Of a stretch of 61,475 nt of DNA, positions 4,624-61,475 are shown piece by piece. Under the pieces are notes generated by a model that was not told the DNA's origin, ran no database searches, and was given only the letters and a program-made list of their open reading frames with translations. This DNA comes from Chitinophaga filiformis (GTDB taxonomy: Bacteria; Bacteroidota; Bacteroidia; Chitinophagales; Chitinophagaceae): NCBI RefSeq assembly GCF_900102545.1, contig NZ_FNBN01000001.1, positions 1 to 61,475 on the forward strand, in the 5' to 3' direction. A program made the translations under genes and the position numbers. Within the stretch, counting starts at the first letter, position 1. The number at the start of each line of letters is the position of its first letter.

Positions 4624-4842
4624 GGGGGTTATTACCCGCATTTTCCCGGGGTTGTCACCCCGCGCATTTTTCCCGGGGTTGTCACCCCGCGCATTTTTCC
4701 CGGGGTTGTCACCCAACGCATTTTTCCCGGGTTGTCACCCCACGCATTTTCCCGGGGTTGTCACCCCGCGCATTTTTCCCGGGGTTGTCACCCCGCGCTA
4801 CAAACACTTGGACTCCTCTGGAGTCCTATTATGTTTTGTTAA
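4624..4842. repeat. Tandem hairpin array ending in a two-hairpin module
   Basis: About seven head-to-tail copies of a 26-27 bp unit (cccggggttgtcaccccg plus cgcattttt) fill 4624-4799. Each copy contains a 6-bp stem, cggggt/accccg, with a TGTC loop. The last copy runs into gctacaaacac, then a second hairpin (ggactcc-tct-ggagtcc, 4810-4826), then an AT-rich tail, tattatgttttgttaa. The same module order recurs at 28.6 kb and, inverted, at the window end. The region 4573-4962 holds no gene; open frames across the array are repeat artefacts. Confidence 0.9.
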
Positions 4843-4962
4843 TGACAGTTGATATAAAGTATACTTTTACCATGCCTTTGCTATGCCGTTACCTTGGACT
4901 TGATATGCTTCAGACATGCTTTATACCAGACGCATACCAGACGCATAGTTGGACTTAAAGAG

Positions 4963-5625
4963 TTACACCAGCTCCCCTACTATCCCCCCATCCTTCATTA
5001 CCAATTGCCTGTCGCTCATAGGAGCAAGCTCTTCGTTGTGGGTAACAATGATAAAGGTCTGCTGGAACTTGTCCCGCAGTTCAATGAACAATTGATGCAG
5101 TTCCCGGGCATTTTTGGAGTCCAGGTTGCCCGTAGGTTCATCGGCCATGACAATATCCGGCTGGTTGATCAGGGCCCTGGCTACCGCTACGCGTTGCTGT
5201 TCCCCTCCCGATAACTGGTTTGGCTTGTGTTCCAATCTGTTGGAAAGGCCCAGGGTTTCCAGCAGGAAAGCTGCCCTTTCTTTTACCTTCGCCTTACGGG
5301 CATTTGCAATATACCCGGGGATACAAACGTTTTCTAATGCAGTGAACTCCGGTAAAAGGTGGTGAAACTGAAAGATGAAACCCATATGTTTGTTCCTGAA
5401 ATCAGCCAATGCGTTCCCTTTCAGAAGTCCCAGGTTTACGTCATTCAACCAGATTTCCCCGGAACTGGGGGTGTCCAGCGTACCGAGTATATGCAAAAGA
5501 GTACTCTTGCCCGCACCGGAAGACCCTACGATAGTTACGATCTCTCCTTTGGATACGGAAATACTTACACCTTTCAGGACGTGTAAGTTGGAATAATTTT
5601 TGGTAAGATTGCGTGCGGTTAGCAT
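4963..5625 (-). CDS. lolD: Lipoprotein-release-type ABC ATPase (LolD-like)
   Basis: A 220-residue ABC ATP-binding subunit closest to LolD, which powers release of lipoproteins from the inner membrane through a LolC/E-type permease. Walker A is GSSGAGKST near residue 38, followed by FIFQFHHLLPEFTALENV, which is typical of LolD, then signature LSGGEQQRVAVARAL, Walker [11 protein letters not shown], and the H-loop IIVTHNEEL. ATG at 5625 is chosen over a TTG two codons upstream. No permease gene is adjacent, so partner assignment rests on subfamily likeness. The gene is divergent from the DUF2795 gene. Confidence 0.88.
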   Translation of the reverse strand: MLTARNLTKNYSNLHVLKGVSISVSKGEIVTIVGSSGAGKSTLLHILGTLDTPSSGEIWLNDVNLGLLKGNALADFRNKHMGFIFQFHHLLPEFTALENVCIPGYIANARKAKVKERAAFLLETLGLSNRLEHKPNQLSGGEQQRVAVARALINQPDIVMADEPTGNLDSKNARELHQLFIELRDKFQQTFIIVTHNEELAPMSDRQLVMKDGGIVGELV

Positions 5626-5663
5626 ACTCAAAGAAAAGTAATTAACCTTTAAAATAGTAATAG

Positions 5664-5693
5664 TTGTTTATTTCAAATTAAATAATACTTTTG
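5664..5693 (+). promoter_or_regulatory. Bacteroidota sigma-ABfr promoter for the DUF2795 gene
   Basis: A TTG at 5664-5666 lies 19 bp before TACTTTTG at 5686-5693. This fits the Bacteroidota consensus (-33 TTTG, -7 TAnnTTTG). The ATG follows 31 nt downstream, so a short leader is expected. Confidence 0.7.
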
Positions 5694-5724
5694 CGAAAAT
5701 TCAGAAAGTAAAAATTTCGATAAC

Positions 5725-5946
5725 ATGTACTGGACCTTAGAATTAGCTTCATACCTGGAGGATGCTCCATGGCCAGCTACGAAAGACGAATTAATAGATT
5801 ACGCCATCCGCTCCGGTGCACCGATTGAAGTGATTGAGAATCTGCAGGAACTGGAAGACGAGGGGGAAATTTATGAGGGAATAGAAGATATTTGGTCTGA
5901 TTACCCGTCGCAAGACGACTTTTTCTTCAACGAGGATGAGTATTAG
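5725..5946 (+). CDS. DUF2795 small acidic protein
   Basis: A 73-residue, strongly acidic protein, recognised as the DUF2795 family, which is very conserved and almost always this size in Bacteroidota. The N-terminal two-thirds (YWTLELASYLEDAPWPATKD, then a helix with IDYAIRSGAP and VIENLQELEDEGE) is predicted to be helical; the C-terminus is Asp/Glu/Phe-rich and probably flexible. No catalytic motif, signal peptide or membrane segment is visible, and no function is known to me. It has its own promoter and is followed by a strong terminator, so it is a single-gene transcription unit. Confidence 0.9.
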   Translation: MYWTLELASYLEDAPWPATKDELIDYAIRSGAPIEVIENLQELEDEGEIYEGIEDIWSDYPSQDDFFFNEDEY

Positions 5947-6001
5947 ACGGATTATTTTCCATTATTGTTGCCTCAGCAATTCGCCTATGCTTAAAAAGTT
6001 T

Positions 6002-6037
6002 AGCCGTTCCTTTTCTTAGGAGGAACGGCTTTTTTTA
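6002..6037 (+). terminator. Rho-independent terminator after the DUF2795 gene
   Basis: A 9-bp stem (agccgttcc 6002-6010 / ggaacggct 6022-6030) is followed directly by a run of T to 6037. It lies about 55 bp past the stop codon. Confidence 0.9.
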
Positions 6038-6139
6038 TACCCTGATCAAAAACCTTATACCTGGTCAGTAATAAGCACATGGAGTGAAATGGAATTGTAT
6101 GCCCCAAAGGATTGTCTTTCCGGATCAGGTTGCAAACCT

Positions 6140-6295
6140 GGGAGATAGCCACCAGGCATATAGTTTAACCATCCCTAAAAAGAAAGAAGTTTACGTACCT
6201 CACGCCTCTCATAGCATCTAAATGATTTTACCTTAACATTAAGTGATTCAGCAGCCGCATTGGTAGCGAGTCAGATAATCTTTCAGCAGCGTTCG
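6140..6295 (-). pseudogene. Remnant of an ISL3-family transposase (C-terminal end)
   Basis: Read on the minus strand with frame shifts, this stretch gives TLLKDYLTR (about 6292-6266), then, one frame over, ATNAAAESLNVKVKSFR (about 6267-6217), and further on FLGMVKLYAWW. This matches the hallmark end of ISL3-family (IS204/IS1096/IS1165) transposases, which read roughly NxSTNAAAESFNxKIKxFR, then FFLFRLxKLYA. At least two frameshifts and a stop separate the pieces, so the gene is dead. No terminal inverted repeats or N-terminal part could be identified. The remainder of the 580-bp gene-free stretch (6040-6570) probably includes more scarred element sequence. Confidence 0.7.
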
Positions 6296-6571
6296 GATAG
6301 CTTACTATCGGCTTACCATCGGCCTGGAATCGGCTTATCATCAGAGCGCTAAAATGGCATCAAGAGGCTATTTTAAGGACATCTATATATCGGTGGGATA
6401 TTGAGGTGACCTCTAAATACTATTTTGATCCCCGGTTGCATACCTATTTGTAAGCTAGTCGCACTAAGACTGCAAGCTTTTGCATTGATAACCTCAAAAC
6501 CATTTTATGGCTATCGTCAAAGACAATATTCTCATGCAGCTACCATTCTGTTTTGACAGGTTATAAATACA

Positions 6572-6607
6572 AAAGCCGTGAAAAAGGATCATCCCTTTCA
6601 CGGCTTT
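6572..6607 (-). terminator. Terminator after fabI
   Basis: A long stem, aaagccgtgaaa with tttcacggcttt, has a purine-rich loop. It lies about 25 bp past the fabI stop, reading on the minus strand. The ends of the stem supply the T-run. Confidence 0.75.
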
Positions 6608-6629
6608 CAAATTATGTTACTACGACGTA

Positions 6630-7442
6630 TTACTTTTCCATCTGCTCAATTACCTCTGCGGATACACCGGTAAATGAGAAACCACCATCATGGAACAGGT
6701 TCTGCATGGTCACCATTTTGGTCAGGTCAGAGAACATTGCCACGCAGTAATCAGCACACTGTTGTGCACTGGCGTTACCCAGCGGGCTCATTTTCTCTGC
6801 ATAGCTCATGAAGCCATCGAAGCCTTTCACACCGCTACCTGCAGTTGTTTTGGTAGGAGACTGGGAGATTGTGTTCACACGTACTTTCTTCTTGAAACCA
6901 TAGTGGTAACCGAAGCTGCGTGCTACTGATTCCAGCATAGATTTAGCATCCGCCATTTCGCTATAGTCAGGGAACACTCTCTGAGCAGCGATGTAGGTCA
7001 GCGCTACTACGGAAGCCCATTCATTCAAAGCATCCAGCTGGTATGCAGTCTGCAGCACGCGGTGCAGGGACATAGCTGAAATATCGAATGTTTTATGAGA
7101 GAAGTCATAATCCAGGTCGGTGTAAGATTTGCCTTTACGCATATTGATACTCATACCCACAGAATGCAGTACGAAATCTATTTTGCCGCCAAAATGCTCC
7201 ATGGATTTAGTGAAAAGGCTTTTCAGATCATCCATATTGGTAACATCAGCGGGTATAACAGGAGCCTTACACAACTCAGCCAGTTTGTTGATCTCTCCCA
7301 TGCGTAATGCGATAGGAGCATTTGTCAGCACAATTTCGGCGCCTTCTTCCACACAGCGTAATGCTGTGCTCCAAGCCATAGACTTCTCGTCCAACGCACC
7401 AAATATGATACCTTTTTTTCCTTTTAATAAGTTATGAGCCAT
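6630..7442 (-). CDS. fabI: Enoyl-[acyl-carrier-protein] reductase (NADH), FabI
   Basis: A 270-residue short-chain dehydrogenase that carries out the last reduction step of type II fatty acid elongation in the cytoplasm. FabI-specific marks are the GALDEKSMAW nucleotide-binding segment (in place of a classic TGxxxGxG), LHSVGM, and the catalytic Tyr-x6-Lys as YSEMADAK near residue 160, with the nearby Tyr of ALTYIAAQR. The C-terminal HDGGFSFTGVS is typical. ATG at 7442 is chosen over a TTG three codons upstream. A TATTTTTG box (7472-7465) sits 22 nt upstream of the start. Confidence 0.96.
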   Translation of the reverse strand: MAHNLLKGKKGIIFGALDEKSMAWSTALRCVEEGAEIVLTNAPIALRMGEINKLAELCKAPVIPADVTNMDDLKSLFTKSMEHFGGKIDFVLHSVGMSINMRKGKSYTDLDYDFSHKTFDISAMSLHRVLQTAYQLDALNEWASVVALTYIAAQRVFPDYSEMADAKSMLESVARSFGYHYGFKKKVRVNTISQSPTKTTAGSGVKGFDGFMSYAEKMSPLGNASAQQCADYCVAMFSDLTKMVTMQNLFHDGGFSFTGVSAEVIEQMEK

Positions 7443-7523
7443 TGGGTTCAAAAATTAATTTCGGCAAAAATAGCTGTTATAGTTGAAAAAAAAAGATTAA
7501 TTGAAAAGCGGCCAATTGATTAG

Positions 7524-9176
7524 CTATTTCACCAGCTCCCTTGCGTTTTCCAGCGCTGCTGCCGTGGGCTTCTCCCCGCTCAGCATCTGGGCTATTTTAT
7601 TAATGCGTTCCTCCCTTGTCAGCAGCCTCACGTTGGTGGTTATTTTACCATCACGGGCATCCTTAAACACAAAATAGTGGTGGTCTGCCTTACCCGCGAT
7701 CTGCGGCTGGTGGGTGATACAGATGATCTGGTGGCCTTTCGCCATATCTTCCATGATGAAGCTGACCTGACGGGCCGCTTCTCCGGAGATACCGGTATCA
7801 ATTTCATCGAATATCAGTGTTGGCAGGGCTACAGACTGGGCTACCAGCGACTTGATACACAACATCAGCCGGCTCAGCTCACCGCCGGAAGCCACCTTCC
7901 TGATAGGGGCAAACTGTCCGCTTTTATTGGCGTCGAAGAGGAATTCGATAGTATCCTGCCCGTAGGGATTCAGCCCTCCCTGCGCAATGGAGGCTTTCAG
8001 GCGGGCATTGGGCATACCTACCTGTGCCAGCAGGGCGTTCACTTTTTCTTCAAAAGGGGCGGCGGCGCTCACACGTGCAGCCGTAATCGTATCGGCCTGT
8101 TGCTGCAGGTCTGCCCGCAATACTTCCAGTTCGGTTTCCAGGGCTGCCAGCTTTTCATCCAGGTTCAGTGCACCTTCCACTTTGCTGCTCAGCTGTTCCT
8201 GGATCTGCAGGAGTTCTGCTGTTGTCTGCACACCATGCTTTTTCAGCAGTTTATAGCCTGTTGACAGTCTTTCATTCACCAGTTCTATACGAGCACCGTC
8301 AAACTGCACCTGGTCGTTCATATGGCCTATTTCTGACGAAATATCCTGTAGTTCCAGGTAGGCAGACTGTAATCTTTCAGCTACCGCCGGAGCGTCTTTA
8401 TGGAAAGCAGCCAGGGCCTGTACAGAAGACTGTATCTGTCTTAGCTGCTGGAGGATAGGCTGTTCATCTTCATTCAGCTGGAAATATACACGGCTCAGTG
8501 TGTTGCGGATCTCTTCGGCATGGCTTAACACTTTCAGTTCTGCATCCAGTTCCTCGATCTCGTTTGCTGCAAATGTGGCATCTGCCAGTTCATCCAGCAG
8601 GAATTTATTATAGTCCAGTTCCTTATTGGCGCTGTCCCGCTGATCTTTCAGTTGTTTCAGCTGGCGCTGCACCTGGGAATAGCGTTGGAACTGCTGCTGG
8701 TATTGCTGCATCATAGCTGGCTGGTTCACCAGTGCATCCAGTACTTCCCGCTGGAAATCGGATTTCTCCAGTTCCAGTGTATCGAACTGCTGATGCAGGT
8801 CCACCAGGTACTGGCTTAACTCTGTCAGCTGGTTCAGATTAACAGGCGTATCATTGACAAATGCACGCGACTTTCCGGCCGAACTGATCTCCCGGCGGAT
8901 GAGTAGCTGATCTTCTTCCATATCCAGCTCATACTGTTGGAAGAAGGCTGCCACCTGCGATTTTTTTACTTTAAAGGCACCCTCTATCACACATTTTGCT
9001 TCTTTGTCAAGCAGCATTCCCGGGTCTGCCCGTTCTCCCAATATTAATGACAACGCACCCAGCACGATCGACTTACCGGCACCTGTTTCCCCTGTAATTA
9101 CATTCAGGTTGCCGGAGAAATCCACCTCCAGGTGATCAATGATCGCGTAATTCTTGATAGTTAGTTTCTGTAGCAT
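7524..9176 (-). CDS. recN: DNA repair protein RecN
   Basis: A 550-residue SMC-like ATPase used in recombinational repair of double-strand breaks. Walker A GETGAGKS lies near residue 31, a long coiled-coil region follows (about residues 155-370, rich in Gln/Leu/Glu), and the C-terminal head has the signature ASGGELSRLMLCIK and Walker B TLIFDEIDTGISGEAA, then ICITHQPQIA. ATG at 9176 (MLQKLTIKNY) is the usual RecN start; the open frame extends upstream to a GTG but that part is not family-like. It lies about 80 bp past the TPR-protein gene on the same strand. Confidence 0.96.
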   Translation of the reverse strand: MLQKLTIKNYAIIDHLEVDFSGNLNVITGETGAGKSIVLGALSLILGERADPGMLLDKEAKCVIEGAFKVKKSQVAAFFQQYELDMEEDQLLIRREISSAGKSRAFVNDTPVNLNQLTELSQYLVDLHQQFDTLELEKSDFQREVLDALVNQPAMMQQYQQQFQRYSQVQRQLKQLKDQRDSANKELDYNKFLLDELADATFAANEIEELDAELKVLSHAEEIRNTLSRVYFQLNEDEQPILQQLRQIQSSVQALAAFHKDAPAVAERLQSAYLELQDISSEIGHMNDQVQFDGARIELVNERLSTGYKLLKKHGVQTTAELLQIQEQLSSKVEGALNLDEKLAALETELEVLRADLQQQADTITAARVSAAAPFEEKVNALLAQVGMPNARLKASIAQGGLNPYGQDTIEFLFDANKSGQFAPIRKVASGGELSRLMLCIKSLVAQSVALPTLIFDEIDTGISGEAARQVSFIMEDMAKGHQIICITHQPQIAGKADHHYFVFKDARDGKITTNVRLLTREERINKIAQMLSGEKPTAAALENARELVK

Positions 9177-9264
9177 AAGGAGTATTGGAAATACGAATAT
9201 ATCACATTGGATTATACCGCAAATTAATACACATATTACGAACTGTATTTGCGTAGTGACAGGC

Positions 9265-10752
9265 TCAACCACCATTTAATCGCTGTAAACCTGCTTTTGC
9301 CCGCTGATCGAGTGAATTTTTATAGTCATGGCCTTTCATATCCAGGCATGCCTGGTAGCATTGCTGCGCTTTGGCCTTATCATTTCTTTTCTCATAGATA
9401 TATCCCATCTGCAGAGAAGCCCTGGCGGCGAAGTATTCCGGGCGGTTGGTGCCTGTCCGTACTGTTGCCTCGTACATGATGATGGCATTATCGTCCTGGC
9501 CCATTTCATCATAAATGCGGCCCAGACGGTAAGCATATTCCAGCTTTTCTTCCATTGTTCCAAAATCTGCGGCCTTCTTCGTTTGCAACAGTTTCAGTGC
9601 ATCAGAGAAATAACCTCCGTCGCTCAGCAGGCGGGCTTTGAGCAACAAGGTATTTGGCCATTTACCGCTTTTGGCGTCTTTTAAGGCCTGCTTGTCTGCA
9701 TCGGTTTCCGTATTTCCCCGGGTGAGGATCATGTTGCGGTACTTGTTGGCCGCCTCCATATTGCCATGCAGGTAATAATACCAGCTAAGGCGCTGCAAGC
9801 CTTCCTTGAGATAGAACTTACCTTTAAAGCGGTCGATGAATTTCAGCAGATAGACATTCGCATCTTCATCCTGCCGGCACAGTTTCAATTGTCCCAGCAG
9901 GTAGTATACGTATGGAATCTCTTCAAACTGCGCACTGTCATTCCGCTCTGTCAGTACTTTAATACCTAGTGCAGCCTTCTGGTTGTTCATGGCGATATTG
10001 GCCACCATCAGGGCAAAAAGGTAGTTATTTTTGGTATCCAGCTTATATTTCTGGATAAATGTCCATACATCTTCCGGTTTGTTCTCTATGAATAATTTCA
10101 GATAACAGTAATAGTAGCAGGCTTCTTCCCTGAATAACCTGGCCACTTCCGTATTGCTGTCTATCACCTGCTGCACCTGCTGCATACCCTCACGGATACT
10201 TCCTTTCATACCAAGCGTATTGGAAATCCAGCGGAACCCTTCGGGGATAGTACCAAACACTGTCTGCATGGAACCGGCCAGCATATTATTAGGCAGGAAC
10301 TGAGGAAATTTTTTCTGATTGTCTTTTAACAGGATATAGGCTTTACGGACGTCCCAGACGGCATCCCAGCGTTCACTGAACTTCAGGCGGATCATACCCC
10401 ACTGGAAACGGATAGCTGCCTGTGTGTAGAGATAATAGGGTGAGTTGGCGGGACCTTCTTCCATGCGGGCCAGCCGTTCGGCCCTGAGTGGCTTTCTCTG
10501 CGCATACAATGTTGCGTCTTCGTTAAAGAAGAGGAGAAAGAAATCAACATAGTTCTCCAGGAAATACGGGATGAGGTTATCTGGTTGTGCCTTTTTTTCT
10601 TCTTCCAACAGGGCTGTTCCGGCGTCGAGGCGCAACTGCATGATGGCGTCATAGGCTTGCTGACAACGGATATTGAAGTCGAAAACCTTTTGCCGTGCTG
10701 ATAGCGAAAACGAAATACTTAAAATGAATGCCAGCAGGATTGTTGTGCGCAT
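9265..10752 (-). CDS. Secreted tetratricopeptide-repeat protein
   Basis: A 495-residue protein with a signal peptide (residues 1-19, ending SLSA-RQ). The rest is helical with TPR-like motifs, clearest near residues 415-490 (YRLGRIYDEMGQDDNAIIMYE and MGYIYEKRNDKAKAQQCYQ). No enzyme motif is seen. TPR proteins of this kind usually scaffold complexes in the periplasm, but the partner is unknown. A TATATTTG box (10764-10757) ends only four nt before the ATG, so the mRNA may be leaderless. recN follows on the same strand. Confidence 0.82.
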   Translation of the reverse strand: MRTTILLAFILSISFSLSARQKVFDFNIRCQQAYDAIMQLRLDAGTALLEEEKKAQPDNLIPYFLENYVDFFLLFFNEDATLYAQRKPLRAERLARMEEGPANSPYYLYTQAAIRFQWGMIRLKFSERWDAVWDVRKAYILLKDNQKKFPQFLPNNMLAGSMQTVFGTIPEGFRWISNTLGMKGSIREGMQQVQQVIDSNTEVARLFREEACYYYCYLKLFIENKPEDVWTFIQKYKLDTKNNYLFALMVANIAMNNQKAALGIKVLTERNDSAQFEEIPYVYYLLGQLKLCRQDEDANVYLLKFIDRFKGKFYLKEGLQRLSWYYYLHGNMEAANKYRNMILTRGNTETDADKQALKDAKSGKWPNTLLLKARLLSDGGYFSDALKLLQTKKAADFGTMEEKLEYAYRLGRIYDEMGQDDNAIIMYEATVRTGTNRPEYFAARASLQMGYIYEKRNDKAKAQQCYQACLDMKGHDYKNSLDQRAKAGLQRLNGG

Positions 10753-10756
10753 GAAA

Positions 10757-10764
10757 CAAATATA
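10757..10764 (-). promoter_or_regulatory. TAnnTTTG box directly before the TPR gene start
   Basis: TATATTTG on the minus strand (10764-10757) lies four nt from the ATG at 10752. No clear -33 TTTG is seen 19-21 bp upstream, so this rests on the -7 box alone. Confidence 0.45.
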
Positions 10765-10833
10765 TCTGATTGTTAACTCCGGGCCTATCTACCAAATTCC
10801 AAACCAAATTTACATTTCCTTACGGCCTGAATG

Positions 10834-10865
10834 TAAAAGTCCCGGCATAAAAGCCGGGACTTTCC
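10834..10865 (-). terminator. Terminator after the zinc-ribbon gene
   Basis: Perfect stem aaagtcccggc / gccgggacttt with a six-nt loop, about 35 bp past the minus-strand stop at 10898. The flanks are only mildly T-rich, so termination strength is uncertain. Confidence 0.7.
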
Positions 10866-10897
10866 TATTACTATCTTAAATGAGGTATATCGCGCTA

Positions 10898-11650: not shown

Positions 11651-11658
11651 GTATGTTT

Positions 11659-12753: not shown

Positions 12754-12754
12754 A

Positions 12755-12780
12755 TTGCCGGTAATTTACCCCTACTTTTG
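12755..12780 (+). promoter_or_regulatory. Promoter for the M32 carboxypeptidase gene
   Basis: TACTTTTG at 12773-12780 lies 15 nt before the ATG at 12796. A TTG at 12755-12757 is a possible -33 element, though the spacing (15 bp) is shorter than usual. Confidence 0.5.
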
Positions 12781-12795
12781 CACAAAATCAAAAGC

Positions 12796-22241: not shown

Positions 22242-22245
22242 TTTC

Positions 22246-22271
22246 CCCCCGGTTGTTGCCCGGGGTACAAA
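22246..22271. repeat. Diverged copy of the hairpin repeat module
   Basis: ccccgg-ttgttgc-ccgggg forms a 6-bp stem followed by tacaaa. It is a shorter relative of the cccggggttgtcaccccgggctacaaa module found at 4.7 and 28.6 kb, placed right after the rlmI stop. Confidence 0.5.
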
Positions 22272-22276
22272 ATACC

Positions 22277-23449
22277 TTATTGCACTTCTACGATGAGGAA
22301 CTTCAGATAAGTGGTATTCTCGATATTCCACAGGATCGGATGGTCCTGCGCCTGGGTCTGGAAGGTTACCTGACGCAGCTTCTTTTTAGCGTCTTTGGCG
22401 GCCATATCGATGATCTCCAGGAAGAGGGATGGCGGCACCAGGTTGGTACAGGAAGCTGTTACCAGGAAACCTCCCGGCTTCAGCAGTTTCATACCGCGCA
22501 GGTTAATCTCCTTATACCCTGTAATGGCCTTCTGGATGTTTTCGCGGCTTTTCGTGAATGCCGGCGGGTCCAGGATCACTACATCGAATTTCTTTTCTTC
22601 CCGGGTCCATTGCTTCAATACATCAAATGCATTGACTGCCTGGAACTTACATACGTCTTCCAGGTTGTTCAGGGCGGCATTCCGGCGGGCGGTATTTACC
22701 GCATGTTCGGAAATATCCAGTCCGAGTACACTTTTGGCCCCATAGTGGCCTGCATGGCAGGAGAAGGTACCGGTATAGCAGAATGCTTCCAGTACATCGG
22801 CGCCTTTCACTATATGCTGGATGGCACGACGGTTATCCTGCTGATCGAGAAAATAACCCGTTTTCTGGCCATTTTCTATATCTACATGGAACTTAAGACC
22901 ATTCTCATTGATGATCACGTTAGTGTCGAAAGGAGCGCTTAAAAAGCCCTTTTGCTGGGATAATCCTTCCAGTTCACGTACGGGTACGTCATTTCGCTCA
23001 TAGATCCCTTTAGGGGAGAAGATCCTGTTCAGGGCATCCACAATGGCGCTTTTCCAGCGGTCCATTCCCAATGCCAGCGTCTGCAATACAAAATGGTCGT
23101 TGAACTTGTCGATGACCAGGGCTGGCATCTCGTCTGCCTCTCCGAAAACCAGGCGGCAGTTTTCCACATATCCCAGCTGCTGGCGGTATTTCCACGCTTT
23201 CAGCAGGCGGCGGTAAAAGAATTCAGCATCAATCTGCTCATCCTTATCGCGCGTAAGCAAACGCACCAGGATCTGGGATTGGGGATTGATATATCCCCTG
23301 CCGATGAAAAAGCCCTGATGTGTAAATACGTCTACCGTATCGCCAGCGGTCACCGGTCCGTCAATTGTCCCCACTTCGTTCCCAAATATCCATGGATGGC
23401 CCTGCAGCACACGGTTCTGTATCTTTTTCTTTAAAAAAACTTTGGTCAT
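22277..23449 (-). CDS. rlmI: 23S rRNA m5C methyltransferase RlmI-type (PUA + SAM methyltransferase)
   Basis: A 390-residue class I rRNA methyltransferase of the RlmI family, expected to methylate a cytosine in 23S rRNA. Order: PUA-like N-terminal domain (residues ~1-75, HPWIFGNEV), RlmI EEHEH-type linker, then the Rossmann methyltransferase with VLEAFCYTGTFSCHAG, LGLDISEHAV, VILDPPAFTKSR and TASCTN near the C-terminus, which holds the catalytic Cys region. ATG at 23449 is preferred over an upstream in-frame TTG. A TACCTTTG box (23476-23469) lies 19 nt before it. It is divergent from grpE. Confidence 0.93.
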   Translation of the reverse strand: MTKVFLKKKIQNRVLQGHPWIFGNEVGTIDGPVTAGDTVDVFTHQGFFIGRGYINPQSQILVRLLTRDKDEQIDAEFFYRRLLKAWKYRQQLGYVENCRLVFGEADEMPALVIDKFNDHFVLQTLALGMDRWKSAIVDALNRIFSPKGIYERNDVPVRELEGLSQQKGFLSAPFDTNVIINENGLKFHVDIENGQKTGYFLDQQDNRRAIQHIVKGADVLEAFCYTGTFSCHAGHYGAKSVLGLDISEHAVNTARRNAALNNLEDVCKFQAVNAFDVLKQWTREEKKFDVVILDPPAFTKSRENIQKAITGYKEINLRGMKLLKPGGFLVTASCTNLVPPSLFLEIIDMAAKDAKKKLRQVTFQTQAQDHPILWNIENTTYLKFLIVEVQ

Positions 23450-28474: not shown

Positions 28475-28587
28475 CAGTTTTGCATCAGTTATACATAAAT
28501 ATAATAAAAACGGAAAAAGGAAGATAGGAATTGTGAATATGATTGGGGATTGGGGCGTGGGGACTGGGGGTGAGAATCATCCATTTC

Positions 28588-28730
28588 CCCGGGGTTTGTC
28601 ACCCCGGGCTACAAACACAAGGCTCCTAAAGGAACCTATTGACGTTTGTTGGAAACAGAGATTGGAGCCTTCCGGGGGAATCCGCTCCGCCAGGAGCGGC
28701 GTGTTTGTAGCGCGGGGTGATAACCCCGGG
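28588..28730. repeat. Inverted pair of hairpin-linker-hairpin modules
   Basis: Forward module at 28588-28655: cggggt(ttgtc)accccg hairpin, gctacaaacac linker, a second small hairpin (ggctcc/ggaacc, one mismatch), and an AT-rich tail. A reversed module lies at 28680-28730: hairpin ccgctcc/ggagcgg, the linker as gtgtttgtag, then cggggtgataaccccg. The two copies face each other. They occupy the gene-free stretch 28475-28831 together with the hairpins at 28741-28811. Confidence 0.85.
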
Positions 28731-28740
28731 TCATAAATAA

Positions 28741-28811
28741 TGCCCCATTAAATCGCGTATGATTATATGGGGCAATATCCCCCGGGGTTCACGCAACCAC
28801 GTGAACCCCGG
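28741..28811. other. Two strong hairpins downstream of hpt
   Basis: tgcccca/tggggca (28741-28774) and a perfect 12-bp stem ccggggttcacg/cgtgaaccccgg with a six-nt loop (28782-28811). They lie 20 bp past the hpt stop on its strand, but have no T-run, so they are either mRNA-end structures or further repeat-family pieces. The loop of the first hairpin contains gcgtatgattat, which resembles a segment of the 61-kb tandem repeat. Confidence 0.7.
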
Positions 28812-28831
28812 TCCGTATAATTACATCTAAA

Positions 28832-52684: not shown

Positions 52685-52685
52685 A

Positions 52686-52790: not shown

Positions 52791-53036
52791 TTACTGGATG
52801 CTTACTTCAAAAGATTCCATCACCTGGTTAGCCAGCAGTTTCTGACAGGCTACTTCGGCCAGTTGTTTAGCTTCTTCTTTGGTAGCAGCATCTATCTGCA
52901 AGGTAATATGTTTGCCAATCCTTACGTCGTGTACATTGTTGATGCCCAGGTTCTTTAAACCACTCATTACCGCCTTACCCTGAGGGTCCAGTAATTCTTT
53001 CAGCGGCATCACATTAATATGTGCAGTAAACGTCAT
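52791..53036 (-). CDS. purS: Phosphoribosylformylglycinamidine synthase subunit PurS
   Basis: An 81-residue PurS, the small bridging subunit of the three-part FGAM synthase (PurS-PurL-PurQ) in purine biosynthesis. The pattern AHINVMPLKELLDPQGKAVMSGLKNLGI, VRIGKHITLQID and AEVACQKLLANQVMESFEV is standard. purL and purQ are not adjacent. A TAGGTTTG box (53061-53054) lies 17 nt before the ATG, with a CAA that fits a -33 element about 19 bp further. Confidence 0.92.
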   Translation of the reverse strand: MTFTAHINVMPLKELLDPQGKAVMSGLKNLGINNVHDVRIGKHITLQIDAATKEEAKQLAEVACQKLLANQVMESFEVSIQ

Positions 53037-53083
53037 TTTTAAAAATTTTGACGCAAACCTAAGATTTAAATCGCAAAAAACAA

Positions 53084-53857: not shown

Positions 53858-53941
53858 TTGTATTCAAGCCGATCGCCTATGGGAATTGTATCCATAGACG
53901 ATCGCACATTTTTAGCATTAAATATTTAGTAAATATATACA

Positions 53942-55234: not shown

Positions 55235-55635
55235 ATTCTTTGTTTACGTTGGTGTATGTAAAAGCGCGTCAAACCTACTGAAATTTCACAATAAGCGCCA
55301 CCCTGTCTTTTACAGCCGGAGGCCCGCCCTGTTCCATAATATTATATGAGCGCTTGTTCCATGCTACGCAGGAGCATAAAGCGTACTTTACTATGAGCAG
55401 TGTTCAGATTTATTACGGTGGAATTCAGAAAGAGATAGAAATAAATATCGGATAACATTTACCTGGCTGTAATATAATGAAATATACCATTATACGATAT
55501 AAGAATAAGTGTATAGCAACCGCTTATTTCTTTACCGTTTCCTGCAAAACAGCCAGATCCATTTTAGATATTTATCAAACAAATATCCATTTAGCAGTTA
55601 GGATTTCTAAATTTAGACAAATCTGCAGCCTTTAA
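55235..55635. other. Gene-free region between pepP and pckA
   Basis: No supported gene is seen. A 20-codon frame with its own ATG (55393-55455) exists but has no family resemblance and no promoter box. The stretch is AT-rich near pckA and contains short inverted words around 55349-55380. The pckA promoter begins at its end. Confidence 0.5.
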
Positions 55636-55665
55636 TTTGATAATATCAAAAAAGCACTAGATTTG
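55636..55665 (+). promoter_or_regulatory. Consensus promoter for pckA
   Basis: TTTG at 55636-55639 and TAGATTTG at 55658-55665 with 18 bp between them is one of the best matches in the window to the Bacteroidota -33/-7 consensus. The ATG lies 25 nt downstream. Confidence 0.78.
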
Positions 55666-55690
55666 CTTACTACACCAAAACAATCTTACT

Positions 55691-57292
55691 ATGCAAGTCA
55701 GCAGTGTAAGGAATCCTGTTGCCGACCTATTAGAGTTAGGTATTAGGCAACCTAATCACGTTTATTATCAATTGGAGCCGGCAGAACTGATTGCACAAAC
55801 AGTAGCTGCAGGCCAGGGGGTCATCACCAGCAGCGGCGCACTTGCCGTGAATACCGGTCAATTTACAGGCCGGTCTCCCAAAGACAAATTTATTGTGAAA
55901 GATGAGCTTACGGCGGCTACCGTTAACTGGAATGATTTCAACATTCCGGTTAACCCTGCCAGCTTTGATAAGCTGTACAACAAACTCACCCGCTACTTTA
56001 CAGGCAAGGATGTATGGGTAAGAGATGGTTATGCCTGCGCCGATCCGGCTTATCGGGTGAACATCAAAGTGATCACAGAAACACCGTGGGCCAACCTGTT
56101 TGCCTATAATATGTTCCTGCGGCCTACTGAAGAGGAACTGGAAAACATGCATCCGGAATGGACCGTTATCCAGGCGCCGGGCTTCCTGGCAGATCCTGCT
56201 ACGGATGATACCCGTCAGGGCAATTTCGCCATGATCAGCTTCACCAGGAAGACGGTTATTATCGGTGGCTCAGCCTATACCGGCGAGATCAAGAAAGGCA
56301 TTTTCTCTATCCTCAATTATATACTCCCCCATGAACATGGTGTATTGAGCATGCATTGCTCCGCCAACCAGGGAGAACAGGGAGATACCGCTATTTTCTT
56401 CGGATTGAGCGGTACCGGCAAAACCACTCTCAGTGCAGATCCTGACCGTAAGCTGATCGGCGACGATGAACATGGCTGGTCTGAGCACAACGTCTTCAAT
56501 TTTGAAGGTGGTTGTTATGCCAAGTGTATAGACCTCAGTGAAGAAAAGGAACCGCAGATATTCCATGCTATCCGTGAAGGTGCGCTGCTGGAGAATGTGA
56601 TCTGTTATACCGGCACTAATGATGTGAACTATGCGGATAAATGCATCACGGAAAATACCCGTGTATCCTACCCGCTGCATTACATCGATAATGCCCTGAT
56701 ACCATCCATAGGCAATATTCCGGAAAATATCTTCCTCCTGACATGTGATGCCTATGGCGTATTGCCGCCTATCTCCAGGTTGACGCCGGAGCAGGCCATG
56801 TATCAGTTCATCTCCGGTTATACCGCCCGGGTGGCGGGAACAGAAGCAGGTATTACCGAACCTACAACTACTTTCAGTACCTGTTTTGGCGCACCTTTCC
56901 TTCCTCTGCATCCGGTTAAATATGCAGCTATGCTGGGAGAGAAATTACGCCGTTACCAGGCGAAAGTATGGCTGGTGAATACCGGCTGGACCGGAGGAGC
57001 ATACGGCACCGGGCAGCGTATCAAGCTATCTTATACCCGCGCCATGGTAGCTGCCGCCCTGAAAGGACAACTGGACAAGCTGGCATATAAGGATCATCCT
57101 GTGTTCGGCTTCTCTATTCCTGAATCATGTCCGGGCGTACCGTCAGAACTGCTGGACCCAAGCAATACCTGGGCCGATAAGGAAGCATACGACAAGCAGG
57201 CTATTGCACTGGGACACAAGTTTGTACACAACTTTGAAAAATATGCCGATCAGGCAACACCGGAAATTTTATCTGCATCTCCAAGAATTTAG
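55691..57292 (+). CDS. pckA: Phosphoenolpyruvate carboxykinase (ATP)
   Basis: A 533-residue enzyme that interconverts oxaloacetate and phosphoenolpyruvate; in many Bacteroidota it also fixes CO2 in the anaplerotic direction. The ATP-type P-loop FGLSGTGKTTLSAD near residue 240 is followed by the PEPCK-specific DDEHGWS and FNFEGGCYAKCIDL. Further motifs: NTGQFTGRSPKDKFIV, KKGIFSILNYILP, and RIKLSYTRAM near residue 440. Complete. It has its own promoter and lies 165 bp before folD. Confidence 0.97.
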   Translation: MQVSSVRNPVADLLELGIRQPNHVYYQLEPAELIAQTVAAGQGVITSSGALAVNTGQFTGRSPKDKFIVKDELTAATVNWNDFNIPVNPASFDKLYNKLTRYFTGKDVWVRDGYACADPAYRVNIKVITETPWANLFAYNMFLRPTEEELENMHPEWTVIQAPGFLADPATDDTRQGNFAMISFTRKTVIIGGSAYTGEIKKGIFSILNYILPHEHGVLSMHCSANQGEQGDTAIFFGLSGTGKTTLSADPDRKLIGDDEHGWSEHNVFNFEGGCYAKCIDLSEEKEPQIFHAIREGALLENVICYTGTNDVNYADKCITENTRVSYPLHYIDNALIPSIGNIPENIFLLTCDAYGVLPPISRLTPEQAMYQFISGYTARVAGTEAGITEPTTTFSTCFGAPFLPLHPVKYAAMLGEKLRRYQAKVWLVNTGWTGGAYGTGQRIKLSYTRAMVAAALKGQLDKLAYKDHPVFGFSIPESCPGVPSELLDPSNTWADKEAYDKQAIALGHKFVHNFEKYADQATPEILSASPRI

Positions 57293-57420
57293 CTATATTG
57301 GCATTCTCACTCCGCCTTTAAAATTTCCACTACTTATTACAAGTTCATTGATACAGGCTTTGCCTGTCGCGAAACAAGTAACCTATTCATTATTTGCATG
57401 ATTAATGACAGGGAACTTGT

Positions 57421-57453
57421 TTTGCGGAACTTGAAAGGAAAATCCTACCTTTG
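57421..57453 (+). promoter_or_regulatory. Promoter for folD with almost no leader
   Basis: TTTG at 57421-57424 and TACCTTTG at 57446-57453 (21-bp spacing). The ATG at 57457 follows only three nt after the -7 box, so the transcript would begin at or next to the start codon. Confidence 0.65.
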
Positions 57454-57456
57454 CGC

Positions 57457-58344
57457 ATGCAAATTTTAGACGGTAAACTTGTTTCAGCGGCTGTTAAAGC
57501 CCAATTGGCAGATAAGGTAACTGAATTGAAAGCGTTGGGCGAAAAAGTCCCCCACCTGGCAGCCATCCTGGTTGGCAACAATCCAGCCAGTGAAACTTAT
57601 GTGGCATCTAAGGTGAAATCCTGCGCCGAGATCGGTTTTCACTCCACTCTTTTACGCTTCGATGCGAAAATCTCTGAAAAGCATTTACTGGACAATATCA
57701 CATTGCTGAATGAAAATGCAGATATTGACGGTATACTCGTACAACTTCCTCTTCCCAAACATATCAACGAAGAACTGGTGATCAACACCATCGATCCCAG
57801 CAAGGATGTAGATGGTTTCCATCCCATGAACGTCGGTAAAATGGTGGCAGGACTGCCTACTTATATTCCCGCAACTCCTTACGGCATTATGCTGATGCTG
57901 GAACACTATAACATCCCTACCAAAGGGAAACATGCAGTAGTGATCGGTCGCAGCCACATCGTAGGTACGCCTATGAGCATCCTGCTGAGCCGTAACGCCA
58001 ATCCGGGTAATTGCACCGTAACGCTCACACACTCACAGACAGCCAACCTGAAAGAGATCTGTCTTCAGGCCGACATCATTGTGGCAGCCATCGGCCGCCC
58101 GAACTTTGTGACCGCAGATATGGTGAAAGAAGGCGCTGTAGTGATCGACGTAGGTATCAACCGTATCGAGGATGCTACCAAAAAGAGCGGTTTCAGACTG
58201 GTGGGCGATGTAGATTACAACGCCGTAGCACCTAAAACCAGCTTTATTACTCCGGTACCGGGTGGTGTAGGTCCTATGACCATTGCAGCATTGCTGAAAA
58301 ATACGTACCACGCCTCTCTGGGTCAGAAAGTAAACATGAACTAA
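57457..58344 (+). CDS. folD: Bifunctional methylenetetrahydrofolate dehydrogenase/cyclohydrolase
   Basis: A 295-residue enzyme that oxidises 5,10-methylene-THF and hydrolyses the product to 10-formyl-THF, supplying one-carbon units. Family marks: LVGNNPASETYVASKVKSC with the catalytic Lys-region (Y/K), ILVQLPLPKHI, PSKDVDGFHPMNVGKM, the NAD(P) motif VIGRSHIVGTPMSILL, and PGGVGPMTIAALLKNT. ATG at 57457 is used; an upstream in-frame TTG overlaps the promoter. The start is nearly coincident with the predicted transcription start, suggesting a leaderless mRNA. Confidence 0.97.
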   Translation: MQILDGKLVSAAVKAQLADKVTELKALGEKVPHLAAILVGNNPASETYVASKVKSCAEIGFHSTLLRFDAKISEKHLLDNITLLNENADIDGILVQLPLPKHINEELVINTIDPSKDVDGFHPMNVGKMVAGLPTYIPATPYGIMLMLEHYNIPTKGKHAVVIGRSHIVGTPMSILLSRNANPGNCTVTLTHSQTANLKEICLQADIIVAAIGRPNFVTADMVKEGAVVIDVGINRIEDATKKSGFRLVGDVDYNAVAPKTSFITPVPGGVGPMTIAALLKNTYHASLGQKVNMN

Positions 58345-58360
58345 CAAAATATCCTGTAAA

Positions 58361-58406
58361 ACGCTTAACACTTTGTACGCCCAACGGCATATAAAGCGTT
58401 AAGCGT
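58361..58406. other. Inverted repeat between folD and queE
   Basis: Arms acgcttaacactttgt (58361-58376) and ataaagcgttaagcgt (58391-58406) pair at 14 of 16 positions. No T-run follows, so it is a hairpin of unclear role, possibly a weak terminator of folD. Confidence 0.65.
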
Positions 58407-58453
58407 TCTGCATTTCCGGGGAACCGATCCGTCAGGGTATCTCCCCATTTACG

Positions 58454-58461
58454 TACCTTTG
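58454..58461 (+). promoter_or_regulatory. TAnnTTTG box directly before queE
   Basis: TACCTTTG ends four nt before the queE ATG at 58466, the same close placement as for folD. No TTTG is seen at the -33 distance. Confidence 0.5.
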
Positions 58462-58465
58462 CAAA

Positions 58466-59095
58466 ATGTCAACAACAACAGCCGATATCGCAACATCTCT
58501 TCAGCTTCCTGTAATGGAACGTTTCTACACCCTGCAGGGTGAAGGCAACTACCAGGGCCAGGCCGCGTATTTCATACGCCTGGGCGGATGCGACGTAGGC
58601 TGTCACTGGTGCGACGTAAAAGACAGCTGGGACGCTTCCCGTCATCCGCTGATCGCTATCAGTGAACTGGTACAGGATGCAGCCGTACATCCCGGCCGTA
58701 TTGCCGTGATCACCGGCGGAGAACCCCTTATGCACAACCTGGATGCGCTGACAGACGCGCTGCACAAAGAAGGTTTCCGCACCCATATGGAAACCTCCGG
58801 CTCCTCCCCTTTAAGCGGGCACTGGGACTGGATTACCCTCTCTCCCAAGAAGTTCAAAGCCCCTCTCCCTGAGATCTGTGGAGTAGCCCATGAACTGAAA
58901 GTAGTAATATTCAACAAAACCGATTTTGCCTGGGCGGAAAAATATGCTGCGCTGGCAGGCTCTCACTGCAAGCTCTACCTGCAACCGGAATGGGACCGTG
59001 CGGCAGAGATCACTCCTCTCATCATCTACTACATCAAGGAAAATCCTCAATGGCAGCTTTCCCTGCAGGTGCATAAGTACATCAATGTGCCTTAA
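58466..59095 (+). CDS. queE: 7-carboxy-7-deazaguanine synthase QueE
   Basis: A 209-residue radical SAM enzyme that converts 6-carboxytetrahydropterin to 7-carboxy-7-deazaguanine, the first committed purine-like intermediate of queuosine synthesis. The radical SAM cluster motif is GGCDVGCHWCDVK (CxxxCxxC) near residue 45, followed by GGEP (VITGGEPLMHN) near residue 88. The N-terminal ERFYTLQGEGNYQGQ is typical. It is followed 78 bp later by the PorE-like gene. Tgt, which acts later in the pathway, is also in this window but far away. Confidence 0.96.
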   Translation: MSTTTADIATSLQLPVMERFYTLQGEGNYQGQAAYFIRLGGCDVGCHWCDVKDSWDASRHPLIAISELVQDAAVHPGRIAVITGGEPLMHNLDALTDALHKEGFRTHMETSGSSPLSGHWDWITLSPKKFKAPLPEICGVAHELKVVIFNKTDFAWAEKYAALAGSHCKLYLQPEWDRAAEITPLIIYYIKENPQWQLSLQVHKYINVP

Positions 59096-59173
59096 ACCGG
59101 CTGCCCTACATCATATTAAGGCCTTACATTTGTGCTTTTTTTCATATATTGGCGGCCTAGCCAATCTAAAGTT

Positions 59174-61069
59174 ATGAGAAGAATCTTCCTATTGACGAGC
59201 AGTTGCTTCCTGTTATGCCTGGAACTAAGCGCCCAGGTCATAACATATGAGAACGCGAAGAAAAAAGCCCAGAAAACTTTTGATGACGCCCAGATGGCAA
59301 TAAGGGAATACCGTATGACGGATGCCGTTGATCTGCTGAAAGACTGTGTAAGACAGGAACCTGGATTTACAGACGCTTACGGACAGATGGTCATCACGTA
59401 TGCGGAGATGAAACAATACAAAGACGCCATCACCAACTACGAAACGCTGAAAAGGCTTGATAGTCCTTCCACCAGGCCTGCTATGCTGGCTTATTCCAAA
59501 GCACTGGCAGGCGAAGGAAGATTCAGTGAAGCACTGGCCACTGTTACCCAATACGTCCAGACCAACAAAACAAAAAATGCAAGAGCAGAAGCGCTCCTGA
59601 AAGCATATACCTTCGCTGCCAGGGCAGCTTCCAAACCGGTTCCTTTCAAACCACATAATATGGGCGACAGCATCAATACCAAGGATCCGGAATATTTCCC
59701 GTCCCTGACCATTGATGGCAAAACACTCGTTTTCACCCGTCGTGTGAACAGCAAGAATGAAGACTTCTATGTTTCTGAAAAGGACGACAGTCTTGGCTGG
59801 ATGCCGGCCTATGGCTTCGGGTCGCCGGTAAACACCGCCAATAACGAAGGCGCACAGAATATCTCCCAGGATGGAAATATGCTGGTGTTCACCGGTTGCG
59901 ACTTCCCCGGAGGAAGAGGTAGCTGTGACCTCTACTACACTGTCAGAACAGAAGAAGGACTGTGGGTAGAACCTATGAACATGGGCTCTCCTATCAATAC
60001 CCGCGACTGGGAATCACAACCAAGCCTTTCTGCCGACAGGCAAACACTGTACTTTGCCCGTGAAACTGCGGATGCAGGTTCCGAGATCTTCATGAGCAAA
60101 TTACAGCCTAACGGTAAATGGGGATTTCCGGAGCGACTGGATTCGAACATCAACACACCTGGTCGTGAAGCCACTCCTTTCATACATCCCGATAATCAGA
60201 CGCTGTATTTCGCATCCAACGGTCATGAGGGCTTTGGCGATATGGATATCTACTTCTCCCGCCGTCAGCCTGACGGCAGCTGGGGCCCGGCAGTTAATCT
60301 TGGTTACCCGATCAACACCGTGGATGAAGACGCCAGCCTCGTAGTAGCAGCCGACGGTAAAACTGCTTATTTCGCATCAGACAGATCGGATAGCCGTGGA
60401 CAACTGGACATCTATAGTTTTGAGCTGTACCCGGAAGCCCGTGCGCAGAGAACACTCTTTGTAAGAGGTTACGTGTATGATGCCAAGACTAAACGCCGTC
60501 TCGTAGGTAATGTAGAACTGACTGACCTGGAAACAGGAAAGACAGCTGCTGTAGTGCGTACAGACAGAATAGGCAACTACACGATACCATTGCCCACCGG
60601 TAAAGACTACGCCTTTAACGTAAACCGTAAAGGTTACCTGTTCTACTCTGATAATTTCTCCCTGAAAAATAAAACAGAAGATTCCATGTTCGTGAGAGAT
60701 ATTCCTCTCGTTCCACTGGATACAAGCGCTGTAATGGTGTTGTATAACATCTTCTTTGATACCAGACAATTCAACCTCAAACCAGGTTCTGAAATTGAGC
60801 TGAACAGACTCGTAGGATTGATGCAGGAAAATCAAACCCTGATTGTCGAGATCAGCGGGCACACTGATAATGTCGGTAATGACCAGGATAATATGATCCT
60901 GTCTGAACGCCGTGCGCAGGCAGTTGTGAAATACCTGGTAAGTAAGGGTATCCCAGCTGAGAGATTGCAGGCGAAAGGTTATGGAGAAACAATGCCTGTA
61001 GCAGATAATAATACGCTCGGGGGAAGGGCCGCAAATAGAAGAACGGAATTCAAGATATTGAAGCTGTAG
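59174..61069 (+). CDS. PorE-like OmpA family protein (TPR, PD40 propeller, CRD, OmpA)
   Basis: A 631-residue exported protein. Signal peptide 1-20 (ELSA-Q). Domain order: TPR-like helices (about 25-150, with FTDAYGQMVITYAEMKQYKDA), PD40/WD40-like beta-propeller repeats (about 170-415; YFPSLTIDGKTLVFTRR, QPSLSADRQTLYFAR, TLYFASNGHEGFGDMDIYFS), a carboxypeptidase-regulatory-like beta domain (about 425-510), and a C-terminal OmpA peptidoglycan-binding domain (about 525-631; VEISGHTDNVGN, RRAQAVVKYL). This order equals PorE of the T9SS, which ties the outer-membrane complex to the wall. It lacks an obvious lipobox, unlike PorE of Porphyromonas. A TACATTTG box (59125-59132) lies 41 nt upstream. 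Confidence 0.88.
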   Translation: MRRIFLLTSSCFLLCLELSAQVITYENAKKKAQKTFDDAQMAIREYRMTDAVDLLKDCVRQEPGFTDAYGQMVITYAEMKQYKDAITNYETLKRLDSPSTRPAMLAYSKALAGEGRFSEALATVTQYVQTNKTKNARAEALLKAYTFAARAASKPVPFKPHNMGDSINTKDPEYFPSLTIDGKTLVFTRRVNSKNEDFYVSEKDDSLGWMPAYGFGSPVNTANNEGAQNISQDGNMLVFTGCDFPGGRGSCDLYYTVRTEEGLWVEPMNMGSPINTRDWESQPSLSADRQTLYFARETADAGSEIFMSKLQPNGKWGFPERLDSNINTPGREATPFIHPDNQTLYFASNGHEGFGDMDIYFSRRQPDGSWGPAVNLGYPINTVDEDASLVVAADGKTAYFASDRSDSRGQLDIYSFELYPEARAQRTLFVRGYVYDAKTKRRLVGNVELTDLETGKTAAVVRTDRIGNYTIPLPTGKDYAFNVNRKGYLFYSDNFSLKNKTEDSMFVRDIPLVPLDTSAVMVLYNIFFDTRQFNLKPGSEIELNRLVGLMQENQTLIVEISGHTDNVGNDQDNMILSERRAQAVVKYLVSKGIPAERLQAKGYGETMPVADNNTLGGRAANRRTEFKILKL

Positions 61070-61091
61070 CGACAGCATAAATGCGAACTAA

Positions 61092-61141
61092 AAAATCAGG
61101 AATAATGCAGCGAATAGCTTGTGTTATTCCTGATTTTTTTT
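61092..61141 (+). terminator. Terminator after the PorE-like gene
   Basis: Stem aaaaatcaggaataa / ttattcctgattttt with a long loop, ending in a T-run to 61141. Confidence 0.85.
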
Positions 61142-61190
61142 GAGGGTAATTGTATTCAACAAAATGTAATCAACTTCACGCGACCTGTGT

Positions 61191-61475
61191 TGTAGCTGCC
61201 CACAGGCATATGATTATCAGGACGACAAACCATGGAATCCGTGTTATAACAAAACATCAATCGGCTCCGTCAGGTGCCGTGTGTTTGTAGTTGTCCGCGG
61301 GCATATGATTATTGACGACAAACCATGGAATCCGTGTTATAACAAAACATAAATCGGCTCCGTCAGGTGCCGTATGTTCAACTGCCCACAAGCGTATGAT
61401 TTTCAGGACGACAATCCTGGAATCCGTGTTATAACAAAACATCAATCGGCTCCGTCAGGTGCCGTGTGTTTGTAG
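61191..61475. repeat. Three tandem copies of a ~95-bp unit related to the hairpin module
   Basis: Copies start at 61191, 61286 and about 61379, with a fourth beginning at the window end (tgtag). Each contains gcatatgatt, catggaatccgtgttata, aaaacat, then cggctccgtcaggtgccg and gtgtttgtag. Read in reverse, the last parts equal the ctacaaacac linker, the second hairpin and the tail (gttttgttata) of the module at 4.8 kb. The array likely continues past the window. Confidence 0.88.

Follow-up and report, generated by a model that had tools for sequence, protein, structure and literature searches.

The closest described counterparts of the repeats reported here for Chitinophaga filiformis are the REP, REPIN and BIME sequences of the GTAG super-family with their RAYT transposases, which share with them high-copy palindromes, a GTAG left unpaired at the base of a GC hairpin, a single HUH gene placed between inverted copies, and inverted dimers. 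For the REP/RAYT systems, species or strains that have lost the gene have been reported, and the same survey names Proteobacteria, Cyanobacteria, Chloroflexi and PVC as carriers of GTAG repeats, with Bacteroidetes not among the groups listed (PMC3733652). The C. filiformis repeats differ from REPs in that GTAG is preceded by another hairpin and the linker GTGTTT, and the transposase described here, TnpA, differs from RAYTs by reading Y...Q..HH rather than the class 2 Y...NP and by missing the cut-off of the REP model.

TnpA shares with the IS200/IS605 family and its short derivatives the Y1_Tnp core and fold as well as hairpins close to the ends, whereas the one gene copy found, syntenic in two relatives, and its inverted two-hairpin ends are unlike that family. 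It also resembles the TnpA_Y1 subclass 1.2 enzymes in the Y---Q--HH signature, the WQ motif, a length of about 150 residues, low copy number and occurrence in Bacteroidetes. In Quentin et al. (2018, PMC6006769), this subclass has a ‘no’ under REP in the table and is generally without typical terminal IS200 structures; contrary to this reported absence, REP-like repeats and inverted hairpin-tag ends are seen here. A literature search by sequence words, in which subscription journals are thinly covered, gave no related paper by title among the matches listed.

Module architecture in the window

The window, which is the whole stretch of 61,475 nt that was analysed, contains three full modules, one divergent array and one tandem array of the first hairpin. 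On the + strand the module reads hairpin 1, tag CTACAAACAC, hairpin 2 and a tail with gttttgtta, and on the reverse strand it reads hairpin 2, GTGTTTGTAG, hairpin 1, so that in C. filiformis the unpaired GTAG lies at the hairpin foot with GTGTTTGTAG directly preceding hairpin 1. The features are as follows.

4625..4779, + strand: tandem array of hairpin 1, unit CGGGGTTGTCACCCCG; six units ahead of the full module, the first degenerate, at a spacing of 26-27 bases
4776..4842, + strand: full module; hairpin 1 at 4780-4795, tag CTACAAACAC at 4798-4807, hairpin 2 at 4810-4826, gttttgtta in the tail at 4833-4841
22244..22290, + strand: GC hairpin weakly like hairpin 1; tag absent, family membership unsupported
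28587..28649, + strand: full module; hairpin 1 at 28590-28606, tag at 28609-28618, hairpin 2 at 28620-28637 (AGGCTCC/GGAACCT, one unpaired position), then the tail
28670..28732, - strand: full module; hairpin 2 (CCGCTCC/GGAGCGG) at 28682-28699, tag GTGTTTGTAG at 28701-28710, hairpin 1 at 28713-28728
61190..61475, - strand: array of divergent units at a spacing of 91-95 bases; hairpin 2 kept (e.g. 61262-61279)

A sequence-only reading of this DNA had placed the ordered module at four loci. Its two modules facing each other at 28588-28730 were found on opposite strands as an inverted pair in which the second hairpins face each other, and its 4624-4842 locus holds one full module at 4776-4842, the rest being the array of hairpin 1 alone. 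The supposed partial copy at 22246-22271 was not confirmed; it is a GC hairpin without the tag that a covariance model scores at 9.9 bits (E 0.56). The reversed copies proposed at 61191-61475 are indeed repeats; they are divergent, with a hairpin 1 that differs from the GC-rich cggggt/accccg stem, an exact GTGTTTGTAG tag in two of three units and a good covariance match at 61250-61312 only (42.5 bits), two more units matching partially. The training set of this model includes the three full modules of the window, so their E-values follow by construction. The model retained only 8 pairs because the loop length of hairpin 1 shifts the alignment, and for this reason pairing in stem 2 was counted by script. 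In the window alone, the tag with one mismatch allowed has six matches against a shuffle mean of 3.87, a number equalled by 18 of 100 shuffles and thus not significant; the significance of the tag comes from the genome-wide counts given below.

As the same reading had stated, the copies are intergenic, with called genes flanking all four window sites. The three supported sites have convergent neighbours at 4.6 and 61 kb and codirectional neighbours at 28.6 kb. This placement is what would be expected if the modules were ordinary bidirectional terminators or mRNA-end stabilisers, locally duplicated and selected at gene ends, with the adjacency to tnpA incidental, although a common 10-base unpaired tag is unexpected of terminators.

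The genome-wide repeat population and a Y1 transposase gene

Across the 8.6 Mb genome the count of the core word GCTACAAACAC is 139, compared with 3 for its reversed control, and that of the tag followed by the gttttgtta tail is 18 compared with none for the control, a high-copy short palindrome as in REP/REPIN systems. Stem 2 shows 19 distinct arm pairs and none of 2000 shuffles paired as well. The module alignment comprises 39 of 45 distinct contexts, which were drawn from fetched loci rather than all 139 places; five contexts of head-to-tail first hairpins and a single match within a coding frame are omitted from it. The sequence-only reading had held that the stems pair despite base changes, and had named the lack of both further copies and compensatory changes as what would speak against the family; both were seen.

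Among the first 30 of the 139 places, 13 lie within frames of 98-327 aa, a number of these frames being merely the repeat array translated; the remaining places comprise 6 convergent, 5 codirectional and 1 divergent setting and 5 that lack a neighbour to one side. Among neighbouring tags at 100 of the 139 places, 33 of 34 pairs are head-to-tail and not inverted, an arrangement that speaks against the transposase reading given below and also suits locally duplicated terminators. The C. filiformis repeats are mostly half elements, either lone or in head-to-tail arrays, and for this reason tandem duplication may have contributed more than transposition to their recent spread.

The compensatory changes in stem 2 would also be consistent with a structured RNA family, a small RNA or riboregulator that has spread in the manner of a gene-end element, and of four copies tested, three gave better folds than their shuffles (z -3.6, -3.2 and -2.5, the fourth -0.4; DNA parameters). 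However, compensatory change is equally expected of a hairpin in DNA that an HUH enzyme reads, an Rfam search of the window gave no match at the gathering score, and the modules occur in both orientations, including the facing pair at 28.6 kb. The inverted ends that flank tnpA and the short elements of strain YR573, both described below, likewise have the architecture of a DNA element, and we regard an RNA family as highly improbable.

One Y1 transposase gene was found genome-wide, some 480 kb away from the window on its contig. This gene, tnpA, sits between inverted, outward-facing modules, one per side, with 153 bases separating it from either tag, which is the single tyrosine transposase gene with inverted flanking copies typical of REP/RAYT systems. 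TnpA has the HUH-Y1 catalytic core and fold (Y1_Tnp) and the motifs DHLH, WQ and YVLNQEDHH, and it scores above the threshold of the NCBIfam IS200 model (77.6 bits against 55) and below that of REP_Tyr_transpos (35 bits against 80). The option of a transposase elsewhere, raised in the sequence-only reading, is thus supported, but this is not a classical RAYT, as the class 2 Y...NP motif is absent and the REP model score is below its cut-off. By its Y---Q--HH signature and WQ, TnpA fits TnpA_Y1 subclass 1.2, an assignment made from the motifs as given in PMC6006769, whose table has DH[IV]H where TnpA has DHLH. The multiple near-identical mobile copies of IS200/IS605 elements were not seen; one copy was found, and its chromosomal place is kept in two relatives (three genomes altogether).

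The modules are dispersed two-hairpin, GTAG-tagged DNA repeats, inverted copies of which flank the only IS200-like HUH gene found, and we consider it likely that they are its non-autonomous passengers. Judged from sequence, they are best read as REP/REPIN-like repeats that a subclass 1.2 HUH enzyme probably moves. TnpA would bind the module hairpins when the DNA is single-stranded and cleave it at the tag, and copies would arise via single-stranded DNA at replication forks, by analogy with IS200/IS605 and REP systems. The intergenic GC hairpins may serve secondarily as transcription terminators.

Relatives of tnpA, short elements and orphan repeats

The motif Y...Q..[HR]H is matched by 78 of 80 tnpA relatives examined. 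An outward hairpin plus tag lies beside the gene in 41 of these 80 (67 sites versus about 1.4 expected) and was not seen at the other 39; a looser count of GTTT[ACG]TAG that does not require the hairpin gives an outward tag at 47 of 80 loci, with 84 outward versus 36 opposite sites. Such an excess over background is not what incidental adjacency predicts. Together with the module copies that flank the Y1 gene, these ends suggest that, of the two options in the sequence-only reading, REP-like elements are to be preferred over structured RNAs.

Chitinophaga sp. YR573 carries 13 short elements, most of about 155 bp, whose hairpins, tag and their order match the flanks of its transposase gene, with the tag about 22 bases from the inner hairpin. 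They reproduce the tnpA ends minus the gene, as expected of REPINs or MITEs. One YR573 element is absent from genome G469, and at one such site the G469 gap holds a plain terminator-like hairpin, as a terminator origin would allow. Against that origin stands, in addition, the patchy copy number in the genus, where pattern matches number at least 13 in 6 of 60 genomes and at most 5 in the other 54, and we therefore think it unlikely that the modules are simply terminators.

Comparisons of empty sites for YR573 elements against G469 and others, and at the tnpA site in G469 and G052, showed presence and absence with no clean boundary because the flanks also differ; at the sites compared, neither the exact boundary of an insertion nor a duplicated target was recovered. 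The same holds for the 28.6 kb window pair, which is common to G010, lacks an intact tag in G026 and has a much shorter gap in G028, the last two again giving presence or absence without a clean boundary. Element L201 of YR573 is present in diverged form at the corresponding site of G469, and therefore not every element is recent.

These shared sites, the one tnpA found, fixed in place in three genomes, and the lack of a Y1_Tnp match (E<=0.001) in four of the six repeat-rich genomes (G010, G013, G026 and G028, drafts) would also suit relics of an older element, with tnpA domesticated and no longer moving them and the present picture due to decay and recombination. Some spread looks recent, however, given identical 46-base modules on different contigs of the C. 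filiformis genome (C9:1069819 and C11:705621) and the YR573 element missing from G469, and a purely relic population seems to us quite unlikely. The four repeat-rich genomes without a Y1 match do count against a strict dependence of the repeats on TnpA. Together with G039, which has a 51% relative yet a single pattern match, they indicate that the repeats outlast the gene or never needed it. In a phylum sample, fewer than 7 pattern matches are seen in 97 tnpA-positive genomes (E<=1e-40), whereas G398 reaches 13 with TnpA not among the matches listed.

Implications for subclass 1.2 enzymes

On balance we lean, by a little, towards a broader proposal, namely that subclass 1.2 HUH enzymes are the transposases of phylum-wide two-hairpin, TGTTTRTAG-tagged elements. 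These would constitute a REP/REPIN system that evolved on the IS200 side of the family, apart from RAYTs, and that in Bacteroidota includes short derivatives able to move as well as orphan populations of repeats. If true, this would give a function to a transposase class described as without IS properties or REPs and add Bacteroidota to the groups with GTAG-type repeats. It would also suggest that IS200-type enzymes acquired repeat populations of their own more than once. Repeat-bearing genomes without a detected enzyme, beside relatives with both, would make the maintenance of REP populations testable.

Hairpin modules in the window and the genome

The sequence-only reading had described one ordered module, with an AT-rich tail containing gttttgtta, at four places in the window, all of them between genes. 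Three full modules (hairpin 1, a 10-base tag and hairpin 2) were recovered, the first with a tandem array of hairpin 1 alone upstream of it, but the array near 61 kb does not have the GC-rich hairpin 1, and the hairpin at 22246 was left out of the family because it has no tag and reaches only 9.9 bits (E 0.56) with a covariance model. Gene calls for the neighbours place all four sites between genes, as had been claimed.

4776-4842, plus strand, full module
28587-28649, plus strand, full module
28670-28732, minus strand, full module
61190-61475, array with hairpin 2 kept, two of its three units carrying the exact tag, GC-rich hairpin 1 absent
4.6 kb site, between cobalamin adenosyltransferase and ABC transporter genes, convergent
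22246 site, between Por-secretion-tail and methyltransferase genes, convergent
28.6 kb site, between VWA/YfbK-like and phosphoribosyltransferase genes, same direction
61 kb site, between an OmpA-family gene and an opposite-strand frame of 347 codons that lies just past the window, convergent

A separate hairpin, CCCCGGGGTTCACG/CGTGAACCCCGG, adjoins the phosphoribosyltransferase gene at 28779-28812 and is possibly a terminator; at its place, two other Chitinophaga genomes (G026 and G028) show a hairpin-like stretch of different bases.

The further copies anticipated by the sequence-only reading were found when the whole C. filiformis genome (G000; 8,625,518 bases, 21 contigs) was searched. Exact GCTACAAACAC occurs 139 times versus three times for the reversed pattern, at least one of the 139 being a chance match inside a coding frame, and it occurs with the gttttgtta tail 18 times versus 0 for the control. 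The proposal that the stems stay paired despite base differences holds for stem 2, where 39 aligned distinct copies contain 19 distinct arm pairs, one of which (L010) pairs poorly. Mean pairing is 6.21 of 7 positions, versus 5.16 (sd 0.16) after random reassignment of the right arms to copies, with G-T allowed and the best-pairing offset picked identically for observed and shuffled arms. Since 0 of 2000 shuffles came up to the observed value, stem 2 is kept while its bases change. Hairpin 1 in this genome stands immediately at GTAG, and copies are single or head-to-tail, with 33 of 34 neighbouring pairs in the same orientation (pairs within 400 bases, among 100 of the 139 places). One head-to-tail array (C9:178298-178943), with six modules spaced 126-129 bases apart, reads in part as a 188 aa open frame and is likely a source of spurious gene calls.

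Ends of tnpA genes and short derivatives

Modules also lie inverted around tnpA, the only IS200-like Y1 transposase gene found in G000. A scan of species genomes for TnpA relatives gave 201 loci, of which 80 were kept and searched within 300 bases either side of the gene for TGTT[TA]NTAG preceded by a stem of >=5. Outward hairpin and tag sites numbered 30 upstream and 37 downstream and opposite-orientation sites 26, while the remaining locus DNA gave a background of 0.0088 per 300-base strand window, or ~1.4 expected in the outward windows. At least one outward site was present at 41 of the 80 loci, so that about half of the relatives examined have the same ends, and 17 loci had sites on both sides; the nearest relatives had them at 39 of 57 loci versus 2 of 23 for the most distant. 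Downstream, 24 of 37 tags fall 46-68 bases past the protein match, and upstream, 14 of 30 fall 61-81 bases before it; the arrangement therefore has a preferred geometry. Many flanks, among the 48 of 80 loci viewed, showed two hairpins, the inner one adjoining the gene and the outer one bearing the tag. At a Bacteroidales UBA6267 locus (L101), repeated units with a tag variant and a different stem lie within 150 bases before the tnpA relative.

Chitinophaga sp. YR573 has 89 copies of GCTACAAACAC versus six reversed-control matches. Whereas copies in G000 are single or head-to-tail with hairpin 1 directly at GTAG, pairs in YR573 are mostly inverted: 14 of 16 neighbouring pairs within 400 bases run minus then plus, and 13 of those 14 are spaced 106-115 bases. 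Read inward, these 13 elements have in common an outer hairpin like GGCTCCGTTAGGAGCC, followed by GTGTTTGTAG, a stretch of ~22 bases and an inner hairpin like GACTCCGTTAGGAGTC; beyond a short centre the series is mirrored, and identity drops outside the outer hairpins. By a simple measure ten span 154-158 bases and the others 138-142. The ends of YR573 tnpA carry these hairpins and this tag too, in unchanged order and at near-equal spacing, with the gene replacing the centre. Judged by sequence, the 13 short derivatives carry the gene's own ends and look as a REPIN or MITE of the YR573 transposase should. Two other short YR573 sequences (L259:494-572 and L259:6495-6570) have matches at numerous places in G052 and G469, those of the first on both strands, and are further dispersed repeat families of the same genus.

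Distribution and comparison of sites

The distribution is patchy. Using the pattern GGAG-N5/6-TGTTTRTAG, 6 of 60 same-genus genomes had >=13 matches (G000 117, YR573 178, G026 72, G028 49, G013 42, G010 13) and the other 54 had <=5. Only G000 and YR573 among these six have the transposase, with no Y1_Tnp match at E<=0.001 in G010, G013, G026 or G028, and one genome (G039) has a 51% relative and one pattern match. Repeats can outlive, or do without, tnpA. A passage in PMC3733652 describes REPtrons as absent from some species, where deletions removed them, as happened in many E. coli strains. The genus-level tie of repeats to transposase is weak: two of three carriers (G000, YR573 and G039, leaving uncounted eight genomes with 27-41% identity matches) are repeat-rich versus 4 of 57 others (Fisher p 0.024, optimistic like the p-values that follow because thresholds were chosen after the counts were seen and genomes are related). 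Among 395 genomes sampled from the phylum, with <=9 TnpA candidates scored per genome, ten had >=7 matches (G000 included), and TnpA at E<=1e-40 was present in 9 of these 10 versus 97 of 385 others (p 4e-5), or in 8 of 9 with G000 removed (p 1.5e-4). The proportions were 8 of 10 versus 81 of 385 at E<=1e-50, and 15 of 17 versus 91 of 378 with the cut at >=4 matches (p 1e-7).

We followed the 28.6 kb gap in six relatives. G010 has a facing pair whose stems differ in bases and are still paired. The gap is shorter in G026, which keeps a remnant at most and lacks an intact tag, and much shorter in G028; G007, G041 and G048 have no module at that place. One YR573 element between two genes is missing from G469, where a plain terminator-like hairpin stands instead, and another (L201) is present at the equivalent G469 site with many differences. 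The position of the tnpA locus is shared by G000, Chitinophaga ginsengisoli (L055) and L056, with flanks 83-90% identical: like RAYT genes, tnpA is inherited at a fixed position. These comparisons of the 28.6 kb gap, YR573 elements and tnpA locus yielded no clean insertion boundary. At the place of YR573 tnpA (L259:5342-6486), G469 has a different sequence (L291), part of which matches a short YR573 stretch downstream of tnpA at 75%.

Relation to REP systems

The modules are probably non-autonomous repeats of REP/REPIN-like type that belong to a subclass 1.2 HUH transposase. TnpA would recognise and cut the modules, which would move through single-stranded DNA and may act as terminators. Three of the four tested features of RAYT systems are found here, whereas the transposase class differs. 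The module system would thus work like a REP system, outside the RAYT family.
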